Assembly: GCA_963691705.1 (NCBI GenBank)
Contig: OY829539.1
Span: 24,412,407-24,476,406, forward strand
Direction of reading: 5' to 3'
DNA: 64,000 nt
Source: Viola odorata
Lineage: Eukaryota > Streptophyta > Magnoliopsida > Malpighiales > Violaceae
Shown: positions 1 through 64,000 of the stretch, one piece after another
Numbering within the stretch: the stretch's first letter is position 1
How the letters are laid out: each line of letters starts with the position of its first letter
Program-made: the position numbers and the translations under genes
The notes under the pieces: generated by a model
Database searches by the model: none
What the model saw: the letters and a program-made list of their open reading frames with translations, nothing else
What the model was told of the DNA's origin: nothing

Positions 1-3000
1 ATGGCAGAAATTCAGCAAGAACCCACAATGAGGGAGCTGAACACCAGAGCAGGAAACCTTTTCCTGTATCGCCTTGCCGCCAGTGGCAAATGATTGGTCG
101 ATCAAGACCAACATGGTGGCCAACCTTTCTAGGTTTTACGGTCATACAAATGAGAACCCATTCAAACACCTGAGGAATTTACACGTCCAGTGTGACATGA
201 TGAAGCCAGCAGGTGTGAGCATGGAGAGAGCGAAGCTAAAAGCCTTTCCCTGTTCTCTTGAGGGAGCTGCGCAGAATTGGTTCTACAACCTACCTCACAA
301 CACAGTCAACACATGGGCCAAGATGTCCACCCTATTCCTCAATAAATACTGGAATGCTACAAAAGCAGGATCGGCTAGAAAAAATATGGCTGCCATCCAG
401 CAAAGGAACAATGAGGGACTGAGCGAATATCACCAACGGTTCAAGGAATTGCAAGAAGTTTGCCCTACACATGGAGTTGCGGATCAAACCATGATCCAAT
501 ATTTCTATGATGGAATGCTCCTGCCTACAAAAGAGAAGGTTGATTCAGCAGCGGGTGGGGCACTACAAGACTTGACTGTAACGAGAGCAAAGCTTTTACT
601 TCAGACCATGGTAGACAACTGCCAAAACAATACTTCCTCTGAAAGAAACTCAACTCCTTCTAGTCTATGTTCTATTGATGTTGAACAAAAATTGGCTGAA
701 TTAACTGACATGGTGAAGAATATTTCTGTCAATATTTCAGGTGCAATGACCACAGGGAATCCTAGCCAAGAGCAGGTAGCCTCAGTATGTGGAATATGCC
801 AACAACAAGACCATCAAACCAATAATTGCTACATGGTGCAGCATCCTCCTGATGATGTAACACAAGTAAATGCAGTCTATGGTCAAACCCAAGGAAGTAT
901 GCAAAACTTCCCACAAGGGAGTAATCAGTACTCATGGAGAGCACACCCAAACTTTAGATGGAGAGATCCAATCCCTCCAAACCAGAACCCAAATCAGAAT
1001 GCCCCTCAGCAGCAACAACAACCTAACTTCCAAAACTTCATCCCCCGTCCTTCACACCTTAATCCTGGCCAACCTCCTGGTCAAGCCGCTGTACCTCAAC
1101 TGCCGCCAGCACCTCAGCCTTTGCAACTTACTGGGCCATCTATGGAGGATACCATCAAAAACTTGATGGAAATGCAGAAGAACCTGATGCAATCAACTCA
1201 ATCTACCTTGGCTGAAATGCAAAAGCAGATTAATCAGATGGCAAATCAAGGGAAATTGCCTTCCACAACCGTAGATAATCCGAAACACAATGTTAGTGCC
1301 ATTAGTTTGAGGAGTGGAGTTGTGCTACCAGAGAGGGAAGGAGCGAAATCAGATGAGGAGGTAAGAAGAATCCAGTCGGAAGGCCTGGATGAAGATGAGG
1401 ATGAGGAAGCTGAAGCTGAAGTAATCTTGACCAAGACACAGGTCAATACTGAAGTTATCGCAGGACAAGAAAAAGCAGAACCTGTCTTGGCCAAGCCTCA
1501 GGCCAAGACTGACCAGAAGGAAGAAATTATAGAAATTCCTCCACCATTCCCTCCTAGATCTTCGAAGGAGAAGAGGGAAGATGAAAAGAGAGACTTTATG
1601 GTTATTTTCGAAAAAATAGCTGTGAATATTCCTATGTTGGACTTAATTGCAAAAGTCCCCTCTTATGCTAAATTTCTTAAGGAACTGTGCACCAATAAAA
1701 ACAAAATTGCAGGTGTAGAGAGGGTTAATTTGGCACACAATGTCTCGGCAGTTCAGCAGCTTCCAGAGAAGTGCAAAGATCAAGGGACCTTCACAATTCT
1801 GTGCCAAATAGGGAGCAAAATCATTGAGAAAGCCCTTTGTGACTTAGGGGCTGGAATCAATGTGATGTCCCTAAGCGAGTTCGAGACCTTGAAGATAGGG
1901 ACCATGAAAGAGACTGACTTGGTAATTCAGCTAGCAGATCGAACTATCATCAGACCAAAAGGAGTAGTGACTGACGTCTTGGTAATGGTAAATGATTTCA
2001 TCTATCCAGTAGATTTTTATATAGTTGAAATGAATGTTCAACTACCCTCTTGCACAACTGATATTTTATTAGGAAGACCATTCCTAAGGACGTCTAAAGC
2101 AAAAATTGATTGTTATGAGGGAAGCATAATTCTAGAATTTTGTGGAAGGACAATTAAATTCAGCATTACTGAGGCTTTAAAACATCCTAATGATTTACAT
2201 TGTGTTAATTTTCTTGATGTTTTAGATCCGATTACTGAAGAAATCGTTGACATTTATATTAACGACCCCCTTGAGTATATTTTAAGCAGGGGAATTTCCA
2301 CTCAAACACTGGAAGAATTAGAGGAAAGGACTGGAGATCAGAAGGAGCTCCAAGAAATTATGGACAGTTTGGCCGATCAGGAAGATACGGATTTGATCTT
2401 GGCCTCGAGCTTGGCCAAGACGTCGGCCAAGACGTCGGCCAAGACTGCCAACAAAAGAAGGAAAATAGCTAGTTGTCAATATATGCAGCCATCGGTTCCT
2501 AAATTTCTGCCTTCTATTGTGCAGGCACCACTGTTGGAACTAAAAGCTCTGCCAGACCATTTGAAGTACGCCTATCTAGGCCTAGACAACACCCTACCCG
2601 TTATAATTTCAGCCAAATTAACGGAAGACGAAGAAGAAAAATTGGTGGCAGTCTTGAAGATGTACAAAGAAGCCATTGGCTGGACCATGGCAGACATCAA
2701 AGGGATATCAGCCAACATATGTACCCACAAAATACATGTGGAAGAGGATAAGAAACCTATTCGGCAACCCTAGAGGAGATTAAACCCTCCGATGATGGAA
2801 GTAGTTAAAAAAGAAATAATTAAGTTGCTTGATTCGGGTGTAATTTATCCTATTTCAGATAGTAATTGGGTGTCCCCTGTGCAGGTAGTCCCAAAGAAAA
2901 CAGGGATTACAGTCATCGAAGGAGAAGATGGAGCCCAAAGGACCACAAGGATCCAAAATGGATGGAGGGTATGCATCGACTACCGAAGACTGAATCAAGT

Positions 3001-5467
3001 CACTCGGAAGGATCATTTCCCATTACCGTTTATCGACCAAATGGTAGAGAGACTCACTGGGAAGTCTCACTACTATTTCTTGGACGGATACTCGGGGTTT
3101 CACCAAATCCCCGTTGCTCCCGAAGACCAAGAAAAGACGACGTTCACTTGTCCATTTGGAACGTTCGCCTACAAACGCATGCCATTTGGGTTGTGTAATG
3201 CGCCAGCCACCTTTCAAAGGTGCATGGTAAGTATATTTTCTGAATATGTAGAGAAGAGCATCGAGGTGTTCATGGATGATTTTACCGTTTACGGTAACAA
3301 TTTCGAACAATGACTACATAATTTAGAAAATATTTTAAAGAGATGTGTTGATACTTGTCTAGTCCTAAACTTTGAAAAATGCCATTTTATGGTAGACCAA
3401 GGAATTGTCCTTGGCCATGTGATTTCAAAAAAGGGCATTGAAGTAGATCAAGCGAAAATTGACGTTATCAAGAACTTGCCTTACCCCTCATGCTTGCGTG
3501 AGGTTAGAAGCTTTCTTGGACATGCAGGTTTCTATCGCAGGTTCATAAAAGACTTCTCGAAGGTAGCTGAACCGATGTGCAAGTTGCTTCAAAAGGAGGT
3601 AGAGTTCGACTTCAATGAGAAATGTCAAAAGTCATTCGATGAGTTGAAGGAGCGACTGACCTCAGCTCCGATCATCCAAGCACCGGACTGGAGCTTGCCA
3701 TTCGAGCTGATGTGCGACGTAAGTGACACTGCTGTGGGAGCCGTTCTTGGGCAAAAGAAAGGGAAAGATCCACATGTGATCTATTATGCATCAAAAATGC
3801 TAGATGATGCCCAACGAAATTATACCACTACTGAAAAAGAACTTTTTGCAATAGTTTTTGCCTTGGAGAAATTTAGATCTTATTTATTGGGCATAAAAAT
3901 TATTGTATTTTCAGACCATGCGGCATTAAAATACCTCTTGGTCAAGCATGAGGCCAAGCCTAGACTAATCCGATAGATTCTTCTCTTGCAGGAACACAAT
4001 CTGGAAATTAAGGACAAGAGCGGTAGGGGAAACCTTGTGGCAGACCACCTGAGCCGCTGCTTAGCAGAAGGAGATCTGGAGCCAGTAAGAGCAGAATTTC
4101 CTGATGAAAAATTCTTTTCAGTCTCACTGTCTAGCCCGGAGTCTAGGCCAAGACCTCCGCCAAGCCCTCGACCATGGTATGCTGAAATTGCGAACTATCT
4201 TGCAACAGGTAAACACTATGGAGATATGACTACCTATGAGAGGGTAAAGGTCAAACATAACAGTAAGTATTATGTCTGGGATGACCCTTATTTATGGAAA
4301 ATAGGTACTGATCAATTATTAAGGAGGTGTGTCCCTCAAAATGAGACCTCATCTATTTTGACTTTTTGTCATTCTCAAGCGTGTGGAGGCCATTTTGGAG
4401 CTAGAAGAACAGCTTTAAAGGTCTTAGAGGCCGGTTTCTATTGGCCTAATATTTTTCAGGACAGTTACTTGCTTTGTAAAACATGTCCTGCTTGCCAAAA
4501 AGTAGGGAATATAAGTTCCCGAAATGAAATGCCTAAGAACTTTATTCTTTCTTGTGAAATTTTTGATTTATAGGGCATAGATTTTATGGGACTCTTCCCT
4601 ACTTCTTTTGGAAATAGATATATTCTATTGGCTGTAGATTATGTATCTAAATGGATAGAGGCGAAAGCCACCAAGAATGATGATGCTAGAACTGTTATTT
4701 CCTTCATTAAATCTAACATCTTGAACAGATTTGGAATTCCTCGTGGGATCATTAGTGACCGAGGAACACACTTCTGCAACAAGATTTTGTCTTCCATTTT
4801 CAGGAAATATGGCATCACACATAGGGTATCAACAGCCTATCATCCTCAATCGAACGTCCAAGCTGAAGTTTCGAATAGAGAGGTGAAATCTGTCTTGGCC
4901 AAGACAGTAGGCCTAGACAGACGCGATTGGAGCCAGCGGTTAGATGACGCGTTGTGGGCCTGCAGAACGGCCTATAAAGGTCCAATTGGGATGGCGCCTT
5001 ACAAGTTGGTCTATGGTAAGGCGTGCCACTTGCCAGTGGGGTTGCAACACAAGGCGTATTGGGCCATACGAAAGTGCAATTTGAGTTATGACCAAGTTGG
5101 ACAAGAGAGAAAGTTACAACTCCACGAGCTAGAGGAGTTGTGAGACCAAGCCTATGACAACCAGCTGATTGTCAAGATCAGAATGAAAGCCTACCATGAC
5201 AAGAGAATTGCTGGGAAACCTCTCCACACAGGGGAGAAGGTCCTCCTTTATAATTCCCGTTTTAAATTATTTCCTGGAAAACTAAAAACAAAATGGGAAG
5301 GCCCTTTTGTTATTACTAATATTTACCCACATGGTGCAGTAGATATTAAAAATGAGAAAATAGGTACCGAACTCAAAGTGAATGGGCAAAGATTGAAGCC
5401 ATTCTTTGAAAGTTTCCAGGAAGGGAAAATTTCTGAAAAGGTAGACATGCCACCAGAAAACAAATGA
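1..5467 (+). pseudogene. E1 gag-pol, broken by stops
   Basis: The polyprotein would supply capsid, protease, reverse transcriptase/RNase H and integrase. In order it shows a retrotransposon gag domain (about 110-560), a CCHC knuckle (CGIC-QQQD-H-QTNN-C, about 795-840), a proline/glutamine-rich linker, an aspartic protease ([11 protein letters not shown] near 1840), reverse transcriptase with FMDD near 3270, RNase H (about 3700-3960) and integrase with an HHCC-type finger and catalytic core (4370-4900). In-frame stops lie at 2771-2773 (TAG), 3311-3313 (TGA), 3974-3976 (TAG), 4571-4573 (TAG) and 5141-5143 (TGA). Comparison with E2 also implies a frameshift near 55-75. Four of the five stops look like C-to-T or G-to-A transitions relative to E2. 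All domains remain alignable and no large deletion is seen, so the decay is mainly by point mutation. The copy cannot encode its own machinery. Confidence 0.93.
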
Positions 5468-6007
5468 AGAAAATTCATAGTCAAGCCTAGGACTTAAAAT
5501 AAGGGCGCTTCAAGGGAGGCAACCCTTATTTCTTTTATTTTTAGGACACATCTATATTTATTTTATTTTTGTCACATTTGATTTCGCTGGGTTGTTTTTG
5601 ATATTGTGCAGGAAATTAAGTGTGGGGAAAGTGAAGCAGTCTTGGCCGAGATCTAGGCCAAGCCTTTGGGCTAGACTGCTGTGAGCGGACTACCCTTTTT
5701 GAGAATTAGTGGGACACGTGTCAGCGCCGTCTTTTAAAGCCTTTATTGGCGTTTTAAACGGACAAATTCAAAAGCAAATTAAAGGAATTAATTGCAGCGT
5801 GGGAAAATAAAACTACCACCTCTGCATATTCCTTCTCCCACTCTGACACGATCTCCCCACGAACCAATAAAAATCCGCCCCCTCACCTGAGCTAAAAAAG
5901 CAACAGTCCCTTCTCCTTCTTCTTTCCCAAATCGCACGAGCTTTCCAGCAAAACCCAAACTCCAAAACCTAAACCCACCATTATCTCTTCTTTCTTCTCT
6001 CGCAACC
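5468..6007 (+). other. E1 spacer between pol and the second ORF
   Basis: No gene is seen here. It holds a purine-rich tract TTAAGTGTGGGGAAA at 5616-5630, closely resembling the true polypurine tract at 9252-9266, and one copy of the 26-bp dyad unit at 5639-5664. The stretch 5770-6007 is pyrimidine-rich and ends directly at the ATG of the second ORF, as expected for a leader of that ORF. Confidence 0.7.
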
Positions 6008-8203
6008 ATGACTGCACCTAATCCATCCTCACCCATCAATATGCCAGAGGCCAGCGACGACCTCCGTGGAGCTCCGCCGCCTGTCATGCCGTCCGACGGT
6101 ATCTCAGCCGCACGACGAATACTCGAAACGCTGGAGAACGATGATTCCATGTCCTCCGAAGACGATTTGCCTGAGGAATCGGAGGAAAGCGTCAAGGGAA
6201 CCGACCGAGCTGTGGTCGTGAGCGATGAGGACTCTAACGACGAGGTTCCTCTCGCGAAAAGAATGAAGCCCACCGTGCCTCCATCTGCTGGAGAGAGAGA
6301 GAGCAGGCGAGAGAGCAGGCTGTTGAAAAAGCTGTCAGCCGCCGGAGCTTCGAAACCAGCTCCGACCTCCGCTGCAAGAAAACCTAAGCCCACTGCCGGA
6401 GCAGCCACTGTTACCACACCACCACCACCACCTCCGGCGAAGAAGCCGGCCACCACTGCACCGCCAAAGAAATCCGGGCGCATCAAGCAGGTGGCCCACA
6501 AGAACACACCGACTAAGAAGTCGGTGAGGGTTCCTGATTCATCACCACCGCCTCCAAACCCTAAGCAGGGCAAAACCAGTGCCGGTCCTTCCTCTGCCAA
6601 AAGTAAAGGCAAACAGCAGGTGGTCGAGGAAGAACCATTTGAGGACGATGAAGACGATCTAGTCTTGGCCAAAACTCAAGCCAAGACTGCTAAGGTATCC
6701 TCTCTTCCTCCCCTACACACACTCAAAGGCTGGTTGAAATTTGATACACCAGACCTTAAGGCCAAATTGCGTAATATGCATTCCTGTGATATTCCCGCAT
6801 TTGCTAGATTACAGTTTGATTTTCTTGATGAAATGGCATTAGGAAATAAAATTAGGGAATATGTGTTTGCAATTGGATGGGTCCCTTTTATGTCTGTTGA
6901 GTGCGATGCCTACACTGAACTCTGCCTTGAGTTTCACACATCTTTTTGGTTTGACGAGGAAACCTTGTATGTTAGGGGTAGAGACAAACCTGATTTTGCT
7001 GCACCTGATGTGATTAATTTTCGATTGTGTGATAAATGGAGCCACTTGTCTGTTGATGCTTTCAATTCTCTGTTAGGATTTGCATATAGTGATGAGGCCA
7101 TTTTTGACTATCCCACTGATTGGGATAATAATGTTGCATTTAGAGAGATCACTGGTGATCCGGATGCAAAGTTTGATAGGAACTCTAAGGCACATGCCAT
7201 TTTGAACCCTGCGCTTAGGATGCTCCATAGAGCCTTGTCTATCAACCTTTCGGGGAAGACAAAGGTTTCTGGGAATTTAGCCAAGTCTGTACTGTTTTTG
7301 CTTTGGTGCATTTTGCACCAGAAAAAAGTCAACTTAGGCTTATATTTGGTCCAAGTGTTGCATGCCCGTGAGTCTAAAACTAAACTGATTTTTGGGTCCT
7401 TGATAACTTGGCTTGCTATTCAAACTGCTGGTCTTGATTTGGCTGCTGCTGATTTACATAAATTTTGCTCCCCCAAAATACTGGATTTTAGATCCTTCGA
7501 CCAAATGGGACATTTCCATTTGGAAGGAGAGTTTGTTGCGTGTAATACAGGTTTTACACCTGTTGGGGAGCACATTTTCTCGAAGAAAAATGGAGGGAGG
7601 TACAAGCTGCGTCCAGTACATATCCCTGGAGAAGAACCAGAGAGCAATATTGCCCCGGGTCTTGGCCAAGACGCTGGCCAAGACACCACCATTCCTGATG
7701 CTGCAGCTGATCTAGGCCAAGACCCCCCTGCCAGTAACATCAATGAGCCTCCAACTTGGACCAGGGAATTTCAAGTTCGCCAGCTGCTCATCCTTGAGCA
7801 GCAGAAGATTATCCTGGATCATCTTGGCCAAGACAAGCCCCAAGACACAGCGCAAGACCCTTCATCCGCATCCACCAGTACAGAGGTGCCTCGTTGGGCC
7901 CAAATACTAAATGACCGACAAGATGTCCTCCTCGAGCAGATGAAACTCACCAGGACCAACATTCTCCACGTCTATCAACATCTGCAGGGCCGCATGACGA
8001 TCCTCAAAGCTCTATACAACAATTTGAGCTCTGATAGCGAGTCCTCTGATGAGGAGGATGATCCCAAACCTGCAGCACAGCCCGTCAAGACACCACATCA
8101 GTCCATACCTCCTCCTGCTCCAAGAAATCCAAAGTCAACCAACCCTCCTCCCCCTGATCTAGGCCAAGCTTCAGGCCAAGATCCCCCGACCCCTGCAACT
8201 TGA
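6008..8203 (+). CDS. Athila second ORF (env-position protein), intact
   Basis: This 731-codon ORF lies downstream of pol, where Athila elements carry an additional ORF often called env-like; its molecular function is not established. The ATG at 6008 follows a pyrimidine-rich leader. Residues 1-225 are acidic and Ser/Pro-rich with basic clusters (for example KRMK and KKSGRIKQ) that could act in nuclear targeting. Residues about 230-525 form a globular domain resembling the conserved plant 'putative transposon protein' region found in many Athila-derived genes. Residues about 590-690 are Gln/Leu-rich and may coil, and the tail is Pro-rich. I see no signal peptide or convincing membrane segment, which argues against a classical envelope protein. 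It is open although the adjacent pol has five stops. Five dyad units are embedded in it, read as LAKTQAKT once and as LGQD-type repeats elsewhere. Confidence 0.8.
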   Translation: MTAPNPSSPINMPEASDDLRGAPPPVMPSDGISAARRILETLENDDSMSSEDDLPEESEESVKGTDRAVVVSDEDSNDEVPLAKRMKPTVPPSAGERESRRESRLLKKLSAAGASKPAPTSAARKPKPTAGAATVTTPPPPPPAKKPATTAPPKKSGRIKQVAHKNTPTKKSVRVPDSSPPPPNPKQGKTSAGPSSAKSKGKQQVVEEEPFEDDEDDLVLAKTQAKTAKVSSLPPLHTLKGWLKFDTPDLKAKLRNMHSCDIPAFARLQFDFLDEMALGNKIREYVFAIGWVPFMSVECDAYTELCLEFHTSFWFDEETLYVRGRDKPDFAAPDVINFRLCDKWSHLSVDAFNSLLGFAYSDEAIFDYPTDWDNNVAFREITGDPDAKFDRNSKAHAILNPALRMLHRALSINLSGKTKVSGNLAKSVLFLLWCILHQKKVNLGLYLVQVLHARESKTKLIFGSLITWLAIQTAGLDLAAADLHKFCSPKILDFRSFDQMGHFHLEGEFVACNTGFTPVGEHIFSKKNGGRYKLRPVHIPGEEPESNIAPGLGQDAGQDTTIPDAAADLGQDPPASNINEPPTWTREFQVRQLLILEQQKIILDHLGQDKPQDTAQDPSSASTSTEVPRWAQILNDRQDVLLEQMKLTRTNILHVYQHLQGRMTILKALYNNLSSDSESSDEEDDPKPAAQPVKTPHQSIPPPAPRNPKSTNPPPPDLGQASGQDPPTPAT

Positions 8204-8276
8204 GTTGCCTCTGCCCCCAGGTCGTTTCTTTCCTTCCTTTTATTTTTCTGTTATGTCTTTTATTTTTTGTCTCTCC

Positions 8277-8314
8277 ACACAATGAGGACATTGTGTCTTT
8301 CAAGTGTGGGGAGA
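8277..8314 (+). other. Conserved hairpin plus internal purine tract (E1)
   Basis: CACAATG (8278-8284), loop AGGA, and CATTGTG (8289-8295) form a 7-bp stem, 8 bp with the flanking A-T pair. Five bases later comes CAAGTGTGGGGAGA (8301-8314), a near copy of the functional polypurine tract. E2 has the same loop and tract at 63000-63037, with a compensatory change in the stem. Confidence 0.72.
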
Positions 8315-9228
8315 ATGATTATATGTCTTGTGTTTTTGTTTTTTCTGCTGTGAATATTGAACGGTTATTGCGAATATTGAGTCAATTTTGTGTGTTTTAA
8401 TTGTTTTATTTTCTTTAAGTCAGTTTGTCCAGCTTAAAGTCTGTCAAATTGCATGATTTTTATTGGTATTTTTCTGCATGTTTTGAGTCTGTTTTGTGAG
8501 TGCACTTCCGAACCCCTATTTTCTTGCTTAGATTGTTTAGTCTTTCGGTGGATCTGCATGTAGACACTTCTCTAGGGGATACAATGCTTTAGTAACAGGG
8601 AAGCAAATGAGCGTAAATGATCAATGCCTTAGGGGCATATTATCTAATGTTTCCCAAACATTAACCACTCATATGGTCGTAAGGACGCTTAGCTAGAACC
8701 TTAACTCTTCTAGGGTGATAGGGTCTTACTGATTTGAGTGTGTCGTTCTATCTGCTATAGTGTGAGACAAATAAAGGTGTTAGAACGTCATAGGGCAGAC
8801 ATAGCAAAGGTGGAAGTCCCCGCAGAAAAGGACAAGCTCTGTCTATGTGCCGTGTCTGTAAAAATACATAGGACACTTGATTTGTCAAAGAAAAAAAAAT
8901 TGCTAGAAAATAAAAGAAGAAAAAGAGAAATCTGTCAAAGTGATTTAAAAGGCACTTTTGGATAGACGACACTCAGTGGGACTCAAAATTTTAGTGAACT
9001 CTGTTGCCCTACACCTTATCAATCTACTCTAGTGGGGTGTCTTGATACCATGTGGAAGGTGGATGTTTGGGGTATTGATTATTCCTTGTTATTCTAGCAT
9101 TGGATATCTTAGTGAAGTGTCTTGGCAGACCCAGTGAAGGAGTAAGCAGTCTGAAATTAAGAAAGTCCGAGGGGTTCAGGGCGTCTATTTTGTTTTGTTA
9201 TGTTTTTATTTTTGAATCTTTGAGTCTG

Positions 9229-9266
9229 TATGCTTGGGGGCAAGCATAGTTTAAGTGTGGGGAATT
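9229..9266 (+). other. Terminal hairpin and polypurine tract of E1
   Basis: TATGCTTG (9229-9236), GGGG, CAAGCATA (9241-9248) form a perfect 8-bp stem. It is followed by TAAGTGTGGGGAATT (9252-9266), which directly abuts the LTR start TGATCG at 9267. The position identifies the tract as the plus-strand primer of reverse transcription. Confidence 0.85.
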
Positions 9267-12136
9267 TGATCGCATTGCATTTCATCATGTTTTATTGTCC
9301 ATTTACTAGTTTATTTGGACAGTAAACCTACTGAATTACCTTCGATTTCCCCTTTTCTTTGCAGTCCTGGTCTGTTGGCAGAACATTAAAGTTTCTGATT
9401 TGGATAGTTGAAGCTGATTTTCCAAGTCTTGGCCTAGACTTCGGCCAAGACACATTCGCATCTCAAGCCGCGCACCAGTCAGATCGTCTTGGCCTAAACT
9501 TCGGCCAAGACTCTTTTCACGATACAAGTCAGTTGAGAAGTAGCGTTGGCACCCCTTTTGGGCTTCGCTTCGCATGGGCCTTGGCTACTGGCAGGCCGCT
9601 TCTATTCGCAAATCCAGATGGATCTGAAGCCTATCTTATGAAGAATCCTAAGGGATCTCCCTCTTTTGTATTTGCGATCTTATTTCCAATTTCAAACAAT
9701 TTATTGTTACAATCTTTTTAGAGATTTTCTAGGAAGTTTAGTTGAAGTAGGACAGAGGAATTTTAGGACTATTTAGCCAAACATTGTTCCTCCTCTGTCC
9801 GGAATCGGATCCCGACCTTCTTCTCTTTTCTTCTTCTTTGACATTGTTAAAAACCTTGCTCCGGATTTTATTTAAATCTCGGATTTATTATTCATGCAAA
9901 AATATATATTGTCTTTTTAATTATGAGTATGATTAGCTAAACACCTATTCTTGGTAAGGGTTGATGAGCTGAAGTTCTTATGCATTCGTGAGATTAAACT
10001 GTGCTTTATAATCTCTTTACTTGTATTTATTTATTTCTTAAGCTTAATTCATCGCTTACTCACTAGAGACAAGGTTTGATCATCCTTGCACTCTAGTAGA
10101 GAAGAGTTGTAGCCGTTCTAGACGGAAAGTGATACGATCCTAGCCCCGAGACTAGCCCTAGTGCACGCACAACACGCACACGCCTTGCGACCAAAGCCAA
10201 TCAACCCAAAGCGTCGAGCCCAAGATGTTCCAAAGCACCAAGGGAGGTTACAACAACCTCTAGACATGGAAACTAGGCAAGGAACGTTGCTGGATCAAGT
10301 CCTTAGGCGAAGGATGACATGGAAGGTGGCTTGGAGGCGCATAGTGCAAGGTTGCACATCTACACGAGCCAATTCATGGAAGAAAGGTTCCAAATCGGGT
10401 TCCAAGATAAATACAAGACCGATTGGGATCTTAGGAGAGCCTCTGCCAAGTTTGAGGACATTTGGACGAGCAGTTTGCAAGATGGCCCGTTGCTACTTTT
10501 GCATGCACAAGTGCCCTAAGCGCAAACATGACGGACAACTTCGTCTGACCATATCTAGATCATCAGAAATCAGAATCGTGCGATCTATATCAATTCTGAA
10601 ACCTCAGGATGTCTTCTTTATTGTGTCCAATTTTCAGATCAAACGGAGGAACCGTTTATTTGTTATGGATCGAGACATTTTCACTGATGGCAATCCTATG
10701 CGGATGAGGACTTCAAAACGCGTCTGTCAACACCAACGACAATTATTCAGACCAGTCAGGCCTGGACCAGGGAGAGAGGACCTTGTCCACTATTTTCAGG
10801 TGTTATCTTTCGAATGGGACAAGTTTCAGCCCAATCGGACGAGTCAATCAAAAGATAGCCCGGTGAGACATTTTGGCGCGCAGTGTGAATGTGAGCAGAC
10901 CGCGACTTGGAGAATTCGGCCCAAACCATGGCCTGATGATGCGAATGCTTCTAGGATGTTCTATAAGGCTTTATTTGTATTTATTAATTAGTTTTTACAG
11001 TTATTAGACTAGTAGAAGTTCTATTTCGAAGTTACTTAGGAGTTCTAGTTAAAATAGGAGTTCTAGTCTTAGTAAACTTGTATTTGTTTTTGCCTATTTA
11101 AAGGCAGCCATTTGGCTTAATAAATCAGTTCAGTTCAGTTTATAAAAAAACACAGAAGAGTCTTCTTCTTTTGATCTTCAAGATCCTTGTTCTATATCCG
11201 GTTTGATAAGCCGCATCTAGCCTCAAGTAAGACACGAAGTTATCACTCCATTCCTTAGTTTCGTCTGGGTTGTCTAGGTATTGCACCTAGGAGGGTCAGA
11301 GTTCTATTGAAGATCCTTGAAGGATTTCGTCCAGGTTGCCTAAGTATTGCACTTAGAAGGGTTGGAGTTTCCGACGAGTTAGTTTTCCGCATTCAAATCC
11401 TTGTCGCTGAGCAACGATCCAACAATTGGAAGGTTTCCGAATTAGGAACCACATCAGAAAGGGAGCACCCGTCGGCTAGACAAAGTAGGCAACTAGTCTC
11501 GAGCTAGACTAGAAGAGATAGGCAATCTAGGTCGAGACCAGATTGACAAACTAGGATCTCCATAGGGAGATACCTTGGCCTAGGTACTGTCTTCCCCTAT
11601 ACCATTGAGGAAGCGAACAGTTATTCAAGACAGCAGTCAAACGGATAAACCCTTTAACCAGCAAGGTATCCCTTGGCTAGGATTATCAGGAAAGGGAGCA
11701 CCCGCCAGGTAATTTGAAGAGGAGGGAAGACAGGAGTGAACAGGAGCACCTCCACTCTATAGCAGTACTATAAGCAAAGAGATGAATATATTTGATTCCA
11801 TGATCGAAGCATAAGAACAAAGCTCTCACATCGCCCTTACCTGGAATTTCCTTTTATCGGATTTACAACAATCTTGACCCCAGTCTTGACCAAGACTTTG
11901 GCCAATACTATTTTAAACTGTTTTCACTACTTTTCGTTTTGTCTTCAGTTTCAGATTCCACCCAATCAAAACTCAGTGACGAGGAAGTCAACCCAAGAAT
12001 TACATTTCCTAGAGGTCTCTGTGGACGATCCTCTTACCATCATCTACAAACTCTTGTAGACAGTGATAAGTTGTATTTCTACCCCCAATTCCATATCTAT
12101 TTCACTATTATATTTGACGTGTTCGACGCACGATCA
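9267..12136 (+). repeat. 3' LTR of E1, interrupted by a solo LTR
   Basis: The LTR begins TGATCGCATTGC right after the polypurine tract and ends CGACGCACGATCA at 12136. Removing the nested insertion and one 5-bp duplication leaves about 1538 bp, almost exactly the size of the E2 LTR (about 1543 bp), which supports both ends. It carries dyad units at 9426, 9486 and 11883. The conserved late-LTR wording is present, for example CTCTGTGGACGATCC near 12018. ORFs inside it (for example 9359-9721) are incidental. Confidence 0.85.
10130..11456. mobile_element. Nested solo LTR of another LTR retrotransposon
   Basis: A 1327-bp segment starts TGATACGATCC and ends ACCACATCA. It is flanked by the 5-bp duplication GAAAG (10125-10129 and 11457-11461). 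Joining the flanks gives GACGGAAAGGGAGCACCCG, whose GGAAAGGGAGCACCCG part occurs again in the same host LTR near 11690, so the empty-site reading is credible. TATA-like CTATTTAAA lies near 11094 and AATAAA near 11119, as expected for an LTR read on the plus strand. There is no internal domain, so it is a solo LTR. A 276-codon ORF at 10161-10991 has no recognisable domain. Near 11261-11371 a segment of about 66 bp is imperfectly duplicated in tandem. Confidence 0.85.
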
Positions 12137-12141
12137 AAAGC

Positions 12142-55215: not shown

Positions 55216-56758
55216 TGATTGGTTGTTTATATTCGATGATTTATGCTCTCTTTATCTTATGTTTTGAGAGCATTTGATTGCTTCTTTTGGCCATTTACTT
55301 CCCTTTTCCTTTGTTCAAGCTTGAAAGATCAGTTGGAAGGAAAAGGAGTTGATTTGGTGAAAGATAGAGCATTTTCCAATCATGGCCGTTTTGGAGGATG
55401 ATTGCAGAAATTTTCCCTTACTCATCCCTAGGCCTAGGGATGAGTCAGGCGATCTGGTGAAATTCTGGGCAGTCCGCCCTTGTTTATGCGTGCCGAGGAT
55501 TAATTTATTTCTTAGTGCTTTTCTTGTCCCCTGAGCATGCTAGACAGTTTTTAAACTCCACTATCTCGTGTTCCCTTATTTCCTTTGACTCAAGAACTCC
55601 TTGGAGACTCCATAGGAATATATTCCATCCCTCTTAGTGCTAGACAAGAATTTATTCTTGTCTCTTCCTTGTTGTTGGAGCCGCATGCTTGCATTGTTTG
55701 TCCCTTGAGTGCTTGCTCCTTAGGGAGTTGTGAGAGGGCATGGTTGAGCTATAGAAAGAGAAGACTTTCGTCCAAGGAGGGGGTTGAACATCATCACATT
55801 CGGACAGAGAGAGAGAGGAGACGAGGATAGCAAGGAGAGCGGGCTGCACTTCTTCACCACCATTTTCCAGATTTGTTTTACTTTGAACAATAGTTTTTAT
55901 TTGTAATTTTAATTATGTATTGTAGCTAATTACCTCTGATTCTTGGTAGAGATTAGAGGTTGACTATCCATGTTGTTGTGAGACTTTTATTGGAATTAAT
56001 ATGAATGTTTTTATATCTCTTTTCTTCTCACTTTAATTGTTAAAACTTGTTCTTGTTGAATTAAAAGCTTGATCAACTCTTGATTTAATTTGAATGGGTA
56101 ATGTCAGTTTCATTTATGTTCAGTGTGATTCCTGCATTTATGAAGATTGAGTAGACAACTAGTGAATATTTGACATAAGACTTGTCTTTAGGATCTAGGT
56201 AGAAAGGAAAGAATGGGTCTAGGTTCAGGGCTGAGTGCCGTATCTATCCCTAGGCCTAGGGATGGGTTTCCCGTATGGTTACAATTTTCCAGCAACTTGA
56301 CAAATTGTTAGGAAGGTTAGGGTCGTTATTAGAGGGCCTCTTTTAATCGACTTGTATAGGGGGAAACCTGGGAATTTAGAGTGTCTCTTGTTCCTATAAC
56401 ATCTCTATAAATCCATTTCAGAATATGTTTTGTCAATGATCAAATAACAAAGGATAGTCACCTTGTATAAATCTCTACCAAGGATTGCCTCTCTATATCT
56501 GATTTCACTCACATTTTCAGTTATAATTCGTGCATGCTACTGTCACTACTGATTTACATTCAAAGTACTGTTTTTAATTTGGTTTTAATTACAAAAACTC
56601 CCCCCAACTTTGTTCCGATTTGGTTTTTAACAAGAAAAATACAAATTACTCAAAGATTTCCTCCCCGTGTTCGAACCTTTCACTACTATCTACATTATAT
56701 TTTGTGGTTTAGCACCGAATTGTATCTTTTTATTTATGGTTGAGAATGACATCAGTCA
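55216..56758 (+). repeat. 5' LTR of E2
   Basis: The LTR starts TGATTGGTTGTTTATATTCG, comparable to the E1 LTR start TGATCGCATTGC, and ends ATGACATCAGTCA five bases before the primer site. It contains palindromes at 55420-55445 and 56246-56263. The start is inferred by similarity to E1, so it may be off by a few bases. Confidence 0.75.
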
Positions 56759-56781: not shown

Positions 56782-56808
56782 GGTAACGAGTTCTAATTTT
56801 CGTTTTTC

Positions 56809-59800
56809 TTGTTGATGACCAGGTCCAGTAACTCACAACCAGTACCTTACGTCCCTGAGATCACAAGAGTTGAAACCGCAATCAGATTATCCAAGAGAAA
56901 GTTCAACGAATTTTCATCTTCTGGTTCAAATTCAGAAGCTGAGGAGAACCTATCCCAAGGCCTAGGGATAGACTCAGGATCAGAACCTGAAGCCGAACCA
57001 GCACCACCAGAGATGGATAATCCACCACCTGAACCTACCCTTCGGGAGCTCAATCAAGGAGCTGAACAAGAGTCCTTCTTGTGTATTAACTACCGCCCAG
57101 TACCAAATGATTGGGCCGTGAAGTCAAATGTCATGCATAACCTCAGCAAGTTCAGAGGACATGCATCCGAAAATCCTTACAAACACCTCCAAAAATTTCA
57201 GTTTGAGTGTGATGCTCTAAAACCAACTGGAGTGAGTCTTGAAAGAGCTAAGTTGAGAGCTTTTCCATGGTCTTTAGAGGATTCAGCCAAGAATTGGTTC
57301 TTTAGCTTGCCTCACAATTCCATTAATTCTTGGGCTGATATGGCTGCTACGTTTCTAAAAAAATATTGGTCAGCCACCAAAGCAGGAGCAGCTAGGAAAA
57401 GTCTTGTCTCAATTCAGCAACATGGTGACGAGTCTTTTGGGGAATATCACCAACGATTTAAAGACCTTCAAGAGGTCTGTCCTACCCATGGCGTGCCTGA
57501 GCAATCTCTCATTCAATACTTCTACGATGGCATGCGAATTAAGGACAAGGAGAAGCTTGACTCGGCAGCTGGAGGAGCCTTGCTTGACTTAACACCAAGT
57601 AGAGCAAGGGCTCTCATTCAAACCTTGGCCGATAATTGCCACCAAAATGGGACTCAAGAACGTTCCACTTCAGCCAACAATATTAGTGTAGCTGCCCTTG
57701 AGAAACACATGGAGGAAGTCTCCACATTTATGAAGAATTTTCCAGCTGCAATTGCCCATATTCAGCAAATTCCACCACAGCAAGTTGTTCCTTGTGGAGT
57801 TTGCTGTCAAATTGGGCATGTGACTCATGAGTGCCCTCTCATAGCCGATCCTCCTGAGCAAGTCAATGCTGCCATGCCACAACAAGGAAATATGCACCCC
57901 AACACCAGTAATCAAGGCTGGAAAAATTACACTCACTATGGGTGGGGGCCAAACCAGCAGCAACCTCCATTTGAGTGGAAAAACTTTAAGCCAAGACAAC
58001 AACAAAGCTACCAAAATCAGCAACCAAACCAGCCACCCACTCAACCACAAGTACCTCAGTTACCACCACCTCAACAACCTCTGCAACTACCAGCACCACC
58101 ACAAGTACCAATCGAAGAAACTCTCAAGCAAATCCTTCAACCATTACAAGCCACGGTTCAAGCAACCCAATCTATGTTGCAAGCAAACCAATCCACCATT
58201 GCTGACCTCCAAAAGCAAATGGCACAGCTTGCAATGAACCAGCAAAATACCTCTGGGCAGCTGCCATCAAACACAGTCGAAAACCCAAGGCACGGACTGA
58301 ATGCAATCCATTTGCGAAGTGGGAGAGATTTACCTCCCAGGGAACTGCCGCATCCATCCCTAGGCCTAGGGATGGATAAACTAGAAATCCAACCAGAAGT
58401 TTTGCCCGAAAATCAGCCAGAAATGCAACAACCAGCGCCTGCACCAGCTGAGCAACCCTCTGCACCTGCAGAGCCTCAGGTAATTCCTTTTCCCTTTCCA
58501 GAAAGGCCCTTGAAAGCCAAGAAGGAAAAAGAGGACAAATTAATTCTTGATGTTTTTCGAAAAGTTGCAATTAATGTTCCTTTGTTGGATTTAATTTCTC
58601 AAGTGCCTAAATATGCTAAATTCTTGAAAGAATTATGTACTAACAAGAAAAAGCTTGAGGGGATTGAAAGAGTGAACTTAAGTGAAAATGTTTCGGCAAT
58701 GCTTCAACAAAGACTTCCCGAAAAATGCAAAGACCAAGGTACGTTTTCAATACCTTGTAAAATAGGGAATAAAGAGATAGAAGATGCATTGTGTGACTTG
58801 GGTGCAGGTATTAATGTTATGTCTCTGTCCATATTTGAAACTTTGAATATAGGATCTCTCAAGGAAACTAGAGTAGTAATCCAACTTGCCGATAGATCCA
58901 CTATCTATCCAGTAGGTTTGCTTGAAAATGTTCTAGTGAAAGTAAATGATTTTGTGTTTCCTGTGGATTTCTATATTGTTGATATGAAAAACAAGGATGT
59001 GCTTAAAACTACTGATGTTATCTTAGGAAGACCCTTTCTAAGAACAGCTAGAGCAAAAATTGATGTCTATGATGGATGTTTGACTTTTGAATTTTGCGGT
59101 GAAACAATTAAATTCAATATGTATGATGCCATGAAACATCCAAATGAAGTTCATTCTGTGAATTTTATAGACATAATTGATCCTTTTGTTGATGAAGTTT
59201 CTAATATTAACTCCATTGAACCTCTTGAGTATGTTCTTAGCAAAGGAATAACCAAGAAGAAATTGGAAAAATTGCAAGACCAAATTGACATCAAATCTGA
59301 AATTGGTGACTTGGTTATGGAGCTGGAAACACCTCATGTCCCTGAAGGTACTCTGAACCCAATTGAAATATCAGATAAAATCACTAAAATCAGACCTTCA
59401 ATTTTTCAGGCTCCCGATTTAAAACTCAAGAAACTGCCAGACCATTTGAAGTACTCATTCCTAGGCCTAGGGATGAGTCTGCCAGTAATTATTTCCAGCA
59501 GTTTGTCAAGGTTGGAGGAGGACAGACTTGTGCAACTTTTGAAGGAATACAAGGAAGCTATTGGTTGGACCATAGCTGACATAAAAGGGATATCTCCAGC
59601 AATATGTACCCACAGAATACACCTTGAGGAGGATGCCAAAACAGTAAGGCAACCACAGAGGAGGCTCAATCCTCCAATGATGGAAGTTGTGAAGAAAGAA
59701 ATCCTAAAACTCCTTGCAGCTGGTGTAATCTACCCCATTTCGGATTCATCTTGGGTTAGCCCTGTGCAAGTGGTCCCAAAGAAGTCAGGAATCACTGTTG

Positions 59801-62322
59801 TGACAAATGAGGAAGGAGAGTTAGTTCAGAAAAGAGAACAAGATACATGGAGAGTGTGTATCGACTATAGAAAACTGAATAATGCGACTAGAAAGGACCA
59901 TTTCCCTCTTCCTTTTATTGATCAAATGCTAGAACGATTAGCAAGCAAATCTCACTACTGTTTTCTTGATGGATTTTCAGGTTTCCATCAAATTCCGGTG
60001 GCAAAGGAGGATCAAGAAAAGACAACTTTTACATGCCCTTTTGGCACGTTTGCATACCAAAGAATGCCATTCGGATTGTGTAATGCACCAGCCACATTTC
60101 AAAGGTGTATGATGAGTATTTTTTCAGATTATGTAGAGAAAGGTATAGAGGTATTTATGGACGATTTTACTGTCTATGGAAACTCTTTTGATGAATGCTT
60201 GAAAAATCTGAAAAAAATCCTTCAAAGATGTATAGAAACGAATTTGGTTTTAAATTATGAGAAATGCCATTTTATGGTAAATCAAGGAATTGTTTTAGGC
60301 CATGTTGTTTCTAAAAAAGGCATTGAGGTTGACAAGGCTAAAATAGATATTATTGAATCGCAATCTTACCCATCTTGTGTGCGAGATGTGCGTTCATTCT
60401 TAGGCCTTGCAGGTTTTTATCGAAGGTTTATTAGAGATTTCTCAAAGATTGCGGAGCCTATGTGTAGGTTGTTGCAAAAGGATGTTGAATTTGACTTCGA
60501 TGAAGCTTGTAAGAAAGCGTTCAACCTCTTGAAGGAGAAGCTTGTGACTGCACCGGTGATTAGAGCACCCGACTGGACCAGACCATTTGAGATAATGTGT
60601 GATGCTAGTGACACAGCCGTTGGGGCTGTTCTTGGACAAAAAATTGGCAAAGAACCACACGTTATTTACTACGCATCAAGGATGCTTGATTGTGCCCAGA
60701 AAAATTACACTACCACGGAGAAAGAATTATTTGCAATTGTGTTTGCCTTAGACAAATTTCGTTCATATCTCCTTGGTACTAAAGTGATAATTTTTTCTGA
60801 CCATGCAGCTTTGAAGTACTTAATGGCGAAGAAGGAGGCAAAGCCTAGGCTCATTCGATGGATACTCCTTCTACAGGAGTTCAACCTTGAGATCAGAGAC
60901 AAGAAGGGCAAGGAAAACCTCGTGGCTGATTATTTAAGCCGACTCCTAACTGACCAAGAAATCAGACCTGTCAAGGAAAATTTTCCAGACGAGCACCTAT
61001 TCCTAGGCCTAGGGATAGAACCCTGGTATTCTGAAATTGCAAATTTCCTTGCTACGGGTAGATTCAGAGGTGACTGCACTTCAGCTGAACGAGAGAAGAT
61101 CAGGAGGGACTCGAGACACTATCTGTGGGATGATCCGTACCTGTGGAACATAGGAAAGGATCAAGTCATCCGCAAATGTGTCCTTGAATCCGAAATTCCA
61201 TCTATTCTCCAACATTGTCACTCTTATGCTTGTGGAGGACACTTTGGCCCGAGGAGGACGTCATGGAAGGTCTTGGAGGCTGGTTTCTTCTGGCCTACAT
61301 TGTTCAAGGACTCATATATCTTCTGCAGAACTTGCCCAAATTGCCAAAAGACCAGAACTATTTCAGCAAAGAATCAAATGCCACTCAATCCTATTCTTGT
61401 TTGTGAGGTATTTGATGTTTGGGGTATAGACTTCATGGGTCCCTTCCCAAACTCAAATGGCCACATTTACATCATTTTGGCAGTGGATTATTTGTCAAAG
61501 TGGGTAGAGGCAAAGGCAACAAGGGCGGATGATGCAAAAACAGTGGTTTCCTTCTTGAAGACGCACATTCTCAACCGTTTTGGAGTCCCCCGAGCCATCA
61601 TAAGTGACAGGGGCAGCCACTTCTGTAATCGTGTGGTTGCAAACCTCTTTGCAAAATACAAGATCACCCATCGTGTATCTACTGCCTACCATCCACAAAC
61701 CAATGGAATGGCTGAATTATCCAATAGAGAGATCAAGTCTATCTTGGAGAAAACAGTAGGTCCAGCAAGGAAGGATTGGAGTCAGAGACTTGAGGATGCT
61801 TTGTGGGCATATAGAACAGCCTACAAAACTCCAATTGGAACCACTCCTTATCGGTTGGTTTTTGGGAAGTCTTGTCATTTACCCGTGGAGATGCAACACC
61901 GTGCATATTGGGCTATCAAGCAATGTAACATGAGTATGAATGAAGCTGGTTTGCAAAGGAAATTGCAGATTCAGGAGCTAGAAGAGTTGAGGAATTCGGC
62001 TTATGAGAATTCAGCCATTATCAAAGCTAAGGCGAAGGTGTACCATGATGGTCGCATCCATCCCAAGGCCTTGAGAGTTGGCCAAAAAGTTCTCCTCTTC
62101 ACCTCCAGGTTTCGCATTATGGCTGGGAAATTAAAATCCCGTTGGACTGGTCCTTATATTGTTGCTAAAGTATACCCTCATGGTGCAATCGATATTGAGG
62201 ATCCAAAGACAAATTCCATTTTCAAGGTTAATGGCCAACGTTTGAAGCCATTTTATGAGGGATTTCGATCTCACATCGTGGAGAGCACCACGAATCAGCC
62301 ATCTGATGTTAATGCAGCTTAA
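56809..62322 (+). CDS. E2 gag-pol polyprotein, intact
   Basis: A single 1837-codon frame begins 28 bp after the primer site. Gag capsid domain at about residues 105-245 ([35 protein letters not shown]); CCHC knuckle at about 329 ([14 protein letters not shown]); Pro/Gln-rich linker; aspartic protease with [11 protein letters not shown] at about 662; reverse transcriptase with FMDD at 1116-1119; RNase H at about 1260-1370; integrase with an H2C2 finger ([21 protein letters not shown]) and a D-D-35-E core (Asp about 1541, Asp 1600, Glu 1636). A C-terminal GPY-like module ([20 protein letters not shown]) is present. DLGA in place of DTGA/DSGA is normal for this lineage. Four palindromes lie in its linkers. 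No stop or frameshift is seen, so the enzymes could be active. Confidence 0.95.
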
Positions 62323-62728
62323 GCAAGCAGTGTCTAGTCTTTTCCAAGACTATAAACTGGAACGAAATGTGGGAGTCAGCCCACACCATTTCAACTTGTG
62401 TGATTATGATCAGCAACCTGACCTATCCCTAGGCCTAGGGATGGGTTCAGTTTCGAATTTCAGGCACAAAAATACAACAAGCTTGCCACCTCACTCAAAA
62501 TTGCCAACTCATTTAAATCAGCCACATCACCAATGCCACCTGTCTAAATCAGCCACCTCACTATTTCCCTCTTCAATTTCAGTTTCCCCTTTCGTTCAAA
62601 ACACCTCCATAAACCAAAAAACTGAAATTATCATTCCCACTCTATCTCAAACATCCGTTCTCCCAAAATCAAAATCCCAAAACCAAAACCTTTCGTTTTC
62701 CCTCAACCAAAACAGCAAATATCCAACC

Positions 62729-63037: not shown

Positions 63038-64000
63038 ATCACTTTCGTGTTTTATTTTGTGTGTTTTTGTATGCTTGATTGTGTGATTTTAATTATTTTT
63101 TATGCATGATCAGTTTGTTTGTTTTTAGTTTCCTTAGTTTTTCCTATTTCTTCTGCATGTTTATTTTAGTAGCTTGTGCGTGTGTTTGCATGTTTTTCGA
63201 GTCTGTTTTTGTGAAGTTTTTCTTGTGTGTCTTGCACCCCTTTGTTTGAAAATCAATCTCTAGGCTGAACTCATGCAAACACTTCTCCAATCAACTCTTC
63301 CCAGCAGTTCTAAACACTTCCTATGTTGCATATGTGCATTTATTTAAATAGAAGTATGATAAGTGTAGCTGTCCTAAGAAATGCTTTGCTAGGACTGATT
63401 TGCCGTCCCTATCCCTAGGCCTAGGGATAAGGATCCCTGCCTCATCACTGCTGTCAGTTTTTATATTTTTGCTTGCATGTGTACCCCTTTAAATTCTTGT
63501 GTGTGGCTTCTCTTTTCATACCCTTTGGACTGCACGATGTTGGTGGTTCGGCACCATCATCCCAGCTTGGAGAAACTTCCAATCGGTCGTGTGCTAACCC
63601 CTTATTTAGGGCCGATCATAGCACCATGGGGAGAGCCAAAAGTCTGCATGTGCATGTGTTTGAGTTCGAAAAAAAAAAAAAAAATAGGAATATGGAATGA
63701 AGGAAGGTTGAAAAGAAAAGAAAGAAAGAATGCGGAAGAAGAAGGAAAGTTGGAGAAAAAAATGCAACAAAGAAAAAGAAAAAAATGCAACAAAGAAAAA
63801 GAAAAAAATAGAATAAAAGAAGTGGAGAAAATAAAAGAAGCCTTTGGCTCATTATGTGTTTTAATTTTGTTCTTCACTACTGTTTGTGCTCTTTTAATTC
63901 TTGCATGTGTCAGCAGCAGTGTGTGGATTTTGAGCCAAAGGAGGAGACGTTTTGAGGTTCTAGGATTTTATTTCTTGGTTGACAGCTTGCTATTATACTC

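Follow-up and report, generated by a model that had tools for sequence, protein, structure and literature searches.

Family-specific palindromes around a GGCC core in two LTR retrotransposons of Viola odorata, candidate DNA sites for a dimeric protein

What is conserved when one short palindrome recurs in the long terminal repeats (LTRs), the spacers and the coding frames of a single retrotransposon? The question is raised by a 64,000-nucleotide stretch of the Viola odorata genome (assembly GCA_963691705.1, contig OY829539.1, forward-strand positions 24,412,407 to 24,476,406; hereafter the window). Its first 12 kb hold most of an element, E1, in which an earlier reading of this DNA (the original prediction) had noticed a family of 26-bp dyad units; a second element, W2, lies towards the other end. 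Both have LTRs, gag, reverse transcriptase (RT), RNase H and integrase in gypsy order, with RT before integrase; "Athila-type" is the label of the original prediction, the domain order being what is seen here. E1 and W2 keep different palindromic words around a GGCC core, the units of E1 are conserved as nucleic acid, and on balance they are probably sites in double-stranded DNA that a dimeric, family-specific protein recognises.

Two palindromic words in one nucleus

The E1 units follow the pattern GTCTTGGCC-N8-GGCCAAGAC, two 9-bp arms flanking an 8-nt middle. At up to three mismatches the window holds 16 matches, all within E1 (1484-11908), which overlap and reduce to 12 places. The pattern is absent at this threshold from 100 of 100 dinucleotide shuffles of the window, and the word was found neither in W2 nor between 12.2 and 55.2 kb. 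The predicted dyad units are therefore real, confined within the window to E1, and not equally frequent in shuffled sequence. Genome-wide (699 Mb searched in 26 contigs, 10 large ones among the 16 contigs listed), 16,577 sites match at up to two mismatches, against 10 for a reversed-pattern control. Nineteen stretches of contig 1, fetched from 12 places and picked for carrying the pattern, all match the E1 LTR, and 18 of them E1-family proteins; in this sample, the genome search that had been proposed leads back to this family.

GGCC cores recur every 12 bp, which is the true period, so that the reported size of 26 bp stands as the span of two cores, not as the repeat length. Exact half-sites, in a sample chosen by the pattern, show 27 spacings of 12 between copies in the same direction, and spacings of 5, 17 and 29 between facing ones. 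The earlier remark that all units share one orientation is empty, as the units are near-palindromes. Units sit in the LTR, in the gag-protease, protease-RT and RNase H-integrase linkers, in the spacer between pol and the second open reading frame (ORF2), in ORF2 and in the integrase core. Coding units occupy all three reading frames (LAKT, GQD/GLD, RPRPPP); the LAKT and GQD readings had been predicted, the third frame, used at 4129, had not. As predicted, the units at 9426, 9486 and 11871 in the 3' LTR are untranslated, and so is that at 5639, between the pol and ORF2 frames.

E1 encodes, in order, gag-protease, RT, RNase H, integrase, and a 731-aa ORF2 with Pfam domain PF20167. Its LTRs are 98.4% identical; the 5' LTR precedes the window, and the 3' LTR is interrupted by a 1.33-kb insertion. 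The E1 features are as follows.

74..2773 (+), gag-protease ORF, 899 aa, units in linkers
1424..1449 (+), degenerate unit with 4 mismatches, gag-protease linker; related copies have half-sites there
1484..1509 (+), unit with exact arms, gag-protease linker, reads LAKPQAKT
2396..2445 (+), protease-RT linker, cluster of units on the 12-bp lattice, reading LAKTSAKTSAKT
2573..2588 (+), core palindrome TATCTAGGCCTAGACA, translated YLGLD, at the position of W2 59457
4129..4166 (+), unit cluster, RNase H-integrase linker, reads SRPRPPPSP; W2 60999 is in the same linker
4890..4918 (+), integrase core, palindrome CTGTCTTGGCCAAGACAG and a half-site, GGCCTAGAC
5639..5664 (+), unit in the spacer that separates the pol and ORF2 frames, untranslated
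6008..8203 (+), ORF2, 731 aa, PF20167 Transposase_32; putative reader
6662..6687 (+), ORF2 unit reading LAKTQAKT
7659..7684 (+), ORF2 unit with exact arms, reading LGQDAGQD
7710..7723 (+), lone palindromic core, ATCTAGGCCAAGAC, within ORF2
7821..7846 (+), ORF2 unit, weakly retained among relatives
8157..8182 (+), unit at the ORF2 3' end
9267..10129 (+), 3' LTR, first part
9426..9451 (+), LTR unit 1, untranslated
9486..9511 (+), LTR unit 2, untranslated, best conserved
11457..12138 (+), 3' LTR, second part, beyond the insertion
11871..11908 (+), LTR unit 3, untranslated, overlapping pair

Two of these places, 2573-2588 and 4890-4918, fall short of the three-mismatch threshold and are absent from the original prediction. 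A match at 3935-3960 was rejected as ordinary coding sequence: its peptide, in the same or closely similar form, is kept in 8 of 8 aligned rows, that of W2 among them, whereas the DNA letters of E1 are approached in L016 and L019 alone. The insertion (10130-11456) is not found in the 5' LTR, and the one ORF tested inside it has no Pfam match at E<=0.01. The E1-family copy L022 (7.16 kb, LTR to LTR) has 13 unit matches at up to three mismatches; L022 (884-8041) and similar E1-family copies of about 7.2 kb have gag-protease and units, and no RT or integrase match.

W2 carries a palindrome of its own, which the original prediction does not mention. Its LTRs are 99.4% identical, and the 3' one ends at 65757, beyond the window. 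Eight ATCCCTAGGCCTAGGGAT sites (up to one mismatch) precede the 3' LTR.

55216..56758 (+), W2 5' LTR
55424..55441 (+), palindrome, LTR
56246..56263 (+), palindrome, LTR
56797..62319 (+), gag-pol frame, 1841 codons stop to stop
56952..56969 (+), palindrome, 1 mismatch
58356..58373 (+), palindrome, gag-protease linker
59457..59474 (+), palindrome, 1 mismatch, protease-RT linker
60999..61016 (+), palindrome, 1 mismatch, RNase H-integrase linker
62425..62442 (+), palindrome, about 100 bp past pol
63411..63428 (+), palindrome, 3' region

Shuffles of W2 lack ATCCCTAGGCCTAGGGAT at up to two mismatches in 50 of 50 cases, and in three further window stretches of 9 kb each no 9-mer is more frequent than in their shuffles. 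Genome-wide, ATCCCTAGGCCTAGGGAT has 1,443 sites at up to one mismatch, against none for the control. On contig 1, 35 of the 50 listed exact sites reside in seven listed W2-family copies, the spans of which make up 0.18% of the contig-1 stretch; the other 15 are unassigned.

Two families in one nucleus thus have words that differ around a common GGCC core, in part at corresponding places. W2 59457 falls on the very site of E1 2573, which reads TATCTAGGCCTAGA in six of seven full-length E1-family gag-protease rows and ATTCCTAGGCCTAGGGAT in W2. The RNase H-integrase linker holds both E1 4129 and W2 60999, and the gag-protease linker has units in either element, at positions that do not coincide. 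Aligned to E1, W2 has nothing at 2396-2445 or at 4892.

Conservation as DNA and change in 12-nt steps

Among 16 LTR heads (one LTR for most copies, both for L022, W2 excluded), identity is 0.957 in the unit arms, 0.724 in the inner N8 and 0.666 in flanks within 60 bases; none of 287 control placements is as conserved as unit 2, and 7 of 287 are as conserved as unit 1. In ORF2 the arms reach 0.957 against 0.832 for the rest, the three units being matched by 32, 201 and 73 of 1,998 placements, and in the pol-ORF2 spacer 0.915 against 0.816, with 80 of 428 control placements as conserved.

Codon choice is skewed where units are translated. Codons of the tripeptides AKT, AKP, AKI, GQD and GQA were counted in six gag-protease and six ORF2 copies and compared by Fisher tests with those elsewhere. 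Gly is GGC in 40/41 unit tripeptides (68/381 elsewhere), Gln is CAA in 40/41 (296/513), Ala is GCC in 43/67 (227/726), and Lys is AAG in 45/55 (356/666); the p-values are too small, because the copies are related.

In the integrase core, all six E1-family copies aligned (partial matches in L010 and L011 excluded) read [VI]LAKTVGLDRRDW at 4890-4918, written with GTCTTGGCCAAGAC in five and ATCTTGGCCAAGAC in one, together with GGCCTAGAC. The W2 integrase has neither word there, with different amino acids over an equal length.

The array also changes in length. In pairwise comparisons with E1 of six gag-protease and five ORF2 copies (L018, L021, L022 and W2 excluded), 23 of the 30 gaps no more than 20 columns from a unit are exactly 12 nt long, as against 0 of 44 elsewhere; these counts are not independent, a single event in E1 being scored once per row.

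Because of LTR conservation, the use of three frames and codon skew, nucleic acid, and not peptide, is the conserved target in the E1 units, in agreement with the original prediction. In W2 the four gag-pol units lie in one frame (LGLG three times, QGLG once), and the argument against a peptide is therefore carried by its LTR sites.

A putative dimeric reader and competing explanations

The units are best accounted for, with some confidence, as double-stranded DNA sites for a sequence-specific, dimeric, family-specific protein, the likeliest effect of which would be anti-silencing. Tolerance to change depends on position (R at 1, W at 5, G at 6 in 205 of 208 distinct 26-mers preselected at up to five mismatches), which resembles a protein site. 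Such a reader would bind in dimeric form, either singly or with adjacent dimers set on the 12-bp lattice, and units in LTRs, spacers and protein linkers would cover the element end to end. As each family has its own word, the reader would most simply be family-specific, and probably encoded by the family or a close relative. An effect on chromatin is likeliest, the recruited activity keeping the DNA of the element unsilenced as VANC does for VANDAL. The protein, its encoding by the element and its effect are what we infer. The palindromes GTCTTGGCCAAGAC and ATCCCTAGGCCTAGGGAT both lack CG and CHG sites, and the cores would therefore not be CG- or CHG-methylated.

ORF2 is a candidate for the reader: its domain is shared by a sunflower Athila ORF for which a nuclear signal is predicted (PMC11728184). 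A search for homologues of the ORF2 protein gave 0 of 7,999 scored candidates at E<=0.001. W2 has a frame without Pfam match at the place of the PF20167 ORF of E1. Among other W2-family copies, those near 26.59 and 43.02 Mb of contig 1 have the next listed exact site past pol at a distance of 3.9 kb, and perhaps a longer 3' region, possibly with ORF2; spacings in these copies come from coordinates only, the identity of each site following the W2 layout.

Several observations weigh against this explanation. The frame of W2 at the ORF2 position is short and remnant-like, and three further copies of the W2 family (contig 1, about 16.79, 22.40 and 26.16 Mb) have about 1.65 kb between the post-pol site and the LTR site, into which a full ORF2 would not fit. 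ORF2 is therefore not simply the reader in every copy; that of W2 may be Gag-Pol, the protein of a relative or a host protein, and this is the weakest link of the proposal. A sequence search of the PDB found no relative of ORF2. In gag-protease the arms score 0.869 against 0.801, and 552 of 2,599 control placements equal the unit, which is unremarkable; the excess of conservation inside units is clear in the LTR, mixed in ORF2 and spacer, and slight here. The statistics overstate independence, because the copies are related. L049, an intact member of another Athila-type family with an open frame of 1,854 codons, has no repeated palindrome and no word above shuffles in 2.4 kb of coding sequence; its linker reads YLGPND where E1 and W2 have a unit, and it has one 12-bp GGCC palindrome. 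Upstream of E1 lies a third Athila-type element, a damaged one (in L005), which reads YLGVND at this linker and, in the part covered, has a single palindrome, the perfect 18-bp ACGTCTAGGCCTAGACGT just past pol (2948-2965), and no repeated word. A private word is not shown for Athila generally, because L049 is negative and L005 has only one palindrome.

The units could instead be sites for a host transcription factor or an insulator-type protein exploited by the elements, which we regard as unlikely, if the least so of the alternatives. The Su(Hw) sites of the Drosophila gypsy element would be a parallel. Palindromes cluster in the LTR head, and in the LTRs of Sirevirus elements the repeated motifs precede the TATA box, according to the account in PMC2829016. 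However, sites run also through coding linkers and integrase, beyond the needs of a promoter, and the finding of different words in one nucleus speaks for separate readers, one to a family, rather than a single host factor common to both.

A role in genomic RNA, as hairpins or self-complementary kissing sites through which Gag would dimerise or package the RNA, or as sources of small RNAs, is improbable. Arms of 9 bp around an 8-nt loop would form a good hairpin, and W2 has Gag and no full ORF2. Ty3 RNA is described as dimerising in vitro via a short palindrome near its 5' end (PMC11381356), and clustered Sirevirus palindromes in maize, as related in a citing paper, draw excess small RNAs. Yet Ty3 has one 6-nt site near the RNA 5' end, as that article presents it, while E1 and W2 have many longer sites dispersed over the whole element, and half-sites recur in the same direction at 12-bp spacing. 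In the 208 26-mers, one-sided arm changes (333 broken, 76 G-U) exceed the 52 double changes that keep pairing, beside which 15 double changes leave the bases unpaired; paired doubles number 26 at pair 1 and 19 at pair 5, where 25.7 and 13.5 doubles of any kind are expected. When 181 distinct units (one site dropped) are oriented as the RNA strand, one-sided transitions outside the outermost pair give 82 A-C against 25 G-U. The hairpin is disfavoured because selection for RNA pairing predicts the reverse, and with compensatory or G-U changes not prevailing, a base-paired RNA signal was rejected as the main constraint. The A-C excess perhaps reflects arm-specific decay or a strand-biased mutation process.

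That the units are functionless mobile palindromic mini-elements, or by-products of slippage or gene conversion, is still less probable. Length differences in 12-nt steps speak for such an origin. However, no whole-unit insertion was seen in the alignments made of gag-protease, ORF2, LTR and integrase, integrase units differ from W2 without change in length, LTR arms are conserved above their flanks, and different words occupy shared sites. Palindromic mini-elements of the Rickettsia type spread by whole-unit insertion into new sites; E1 units, in contrast, show 12-nt steps and same-length differences. Of the three mechanisms first suggested, the site for a dimeric protein thus fits best, the RNA hairpin is disfavoured and the mobile mini-unit is not supported.

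Peptide repeats (AKTx, GQDx, LGLG) serving polyprotein and ORF2 linkers, with non-coding copies arising by chance, would suit a 12-nt step of four codons, the LAKT or GQD of most coding units, the single frame of the four W2 gag-pol units and gag-protease units scarcely more conserved than their surroundings, but are contradicted by conserved, untranslated LTR units, the third frame at 4129 and codon skew, and are highly improbable.

Relation to known systems and significance

The DNA-site explanation has its closest precedent in VANDAL transposons. Their VANC proteins are reported to bind short motifs that occur at high density in the corresponding VANDAL family; such motifs are described as rare in other transposable elements, shifting in number by tandem repeats and differing between families, the VANC6 motif being found too on the unrelated element AT9TSD1 (PMC5735166, PMC10398659). 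The E1 and W2 words are likewise family-specific, dense and rare elsewhere, and the E1 array changes by tandem gain and loss, as the 12-nt gaps indicate. Unlike VANDAL elements, which are DNA transposons with mainly non-coding motifs, E1 and W2 are LTR retrotransposons with units also in gag-pol and, in E1, ORF2. Their units are palindromic, a property that the portions of these reports drawn on here do not ascribe to VANDAL motifs, and VANDAL has a known reader in VANC where E1 has a candidate only.

Sirevirus repeated motifs are presented in PMC2829016 as element-specific palindromes with a CGG-CCG core (with one exception), many of them in LTRs and, in env-containing elements, also 5' of the env-like gene; the same text describes them as specific to Sirevirus elements, non-coding and absent from classic retrotransposons. 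The E1 and W2 palindromes are also element-specific, share a core and occur in LTRs. They differ in the Ty3/gypsy, not Ty1/copia, domain order of their elements, in a GGCC core with neither CG nor CHG instead of a CGG-CCG core making CpG islands, and in the presence of units in coding linkers and, in E1, integrase.

One more element of this genome, F3 (L045 4408 to L046 2082), has 1370-bp LTRs that are 100% identical, a PF20167 ORF and no E1-type pol match; a copia-type gag gave a weak match only (E 0.012, under the cut-off). Its palindrome, CAAAACGCYATAGCGTTTTG, clusters in the LTR and directly 5' of the PF20167 ORF, and exact half-sites are absent from its two main ORFs. The layout is Sirevirus-like, with a word of its own.

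A sunflower Athila is reported to have an additional 3' ORF with PF20167, as E1 has, and with a predicted nuclear signal (PMC11728184). Literature searches returned no report of palindromic units like those of E1 and W2 in Athila, judged by titles and abstract openings. A DNA word kept inside integrase and linkers would be an unusual case, coding sequence being bent to a DNA-level signal.

How plant LTR retrotransposons persist under silencing is an open question, and whether Tork and Athila encode additional ORFs modulating the epigenetic landscape is said to await study (PMC12844716, 2026). A private cis-code per family makes the latter testable. Tentatively, and with doubt prevailing, Athila-type elements may possess a self-recognition code, a private palindrome written along the entire element, coding regions included, together with a dimeric reader from the family or its relatives that would counter the silencing of that family only, as a retrotransposon counterpart of VANC. 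If this holds true, code and reader would change together between families within one nucleus.

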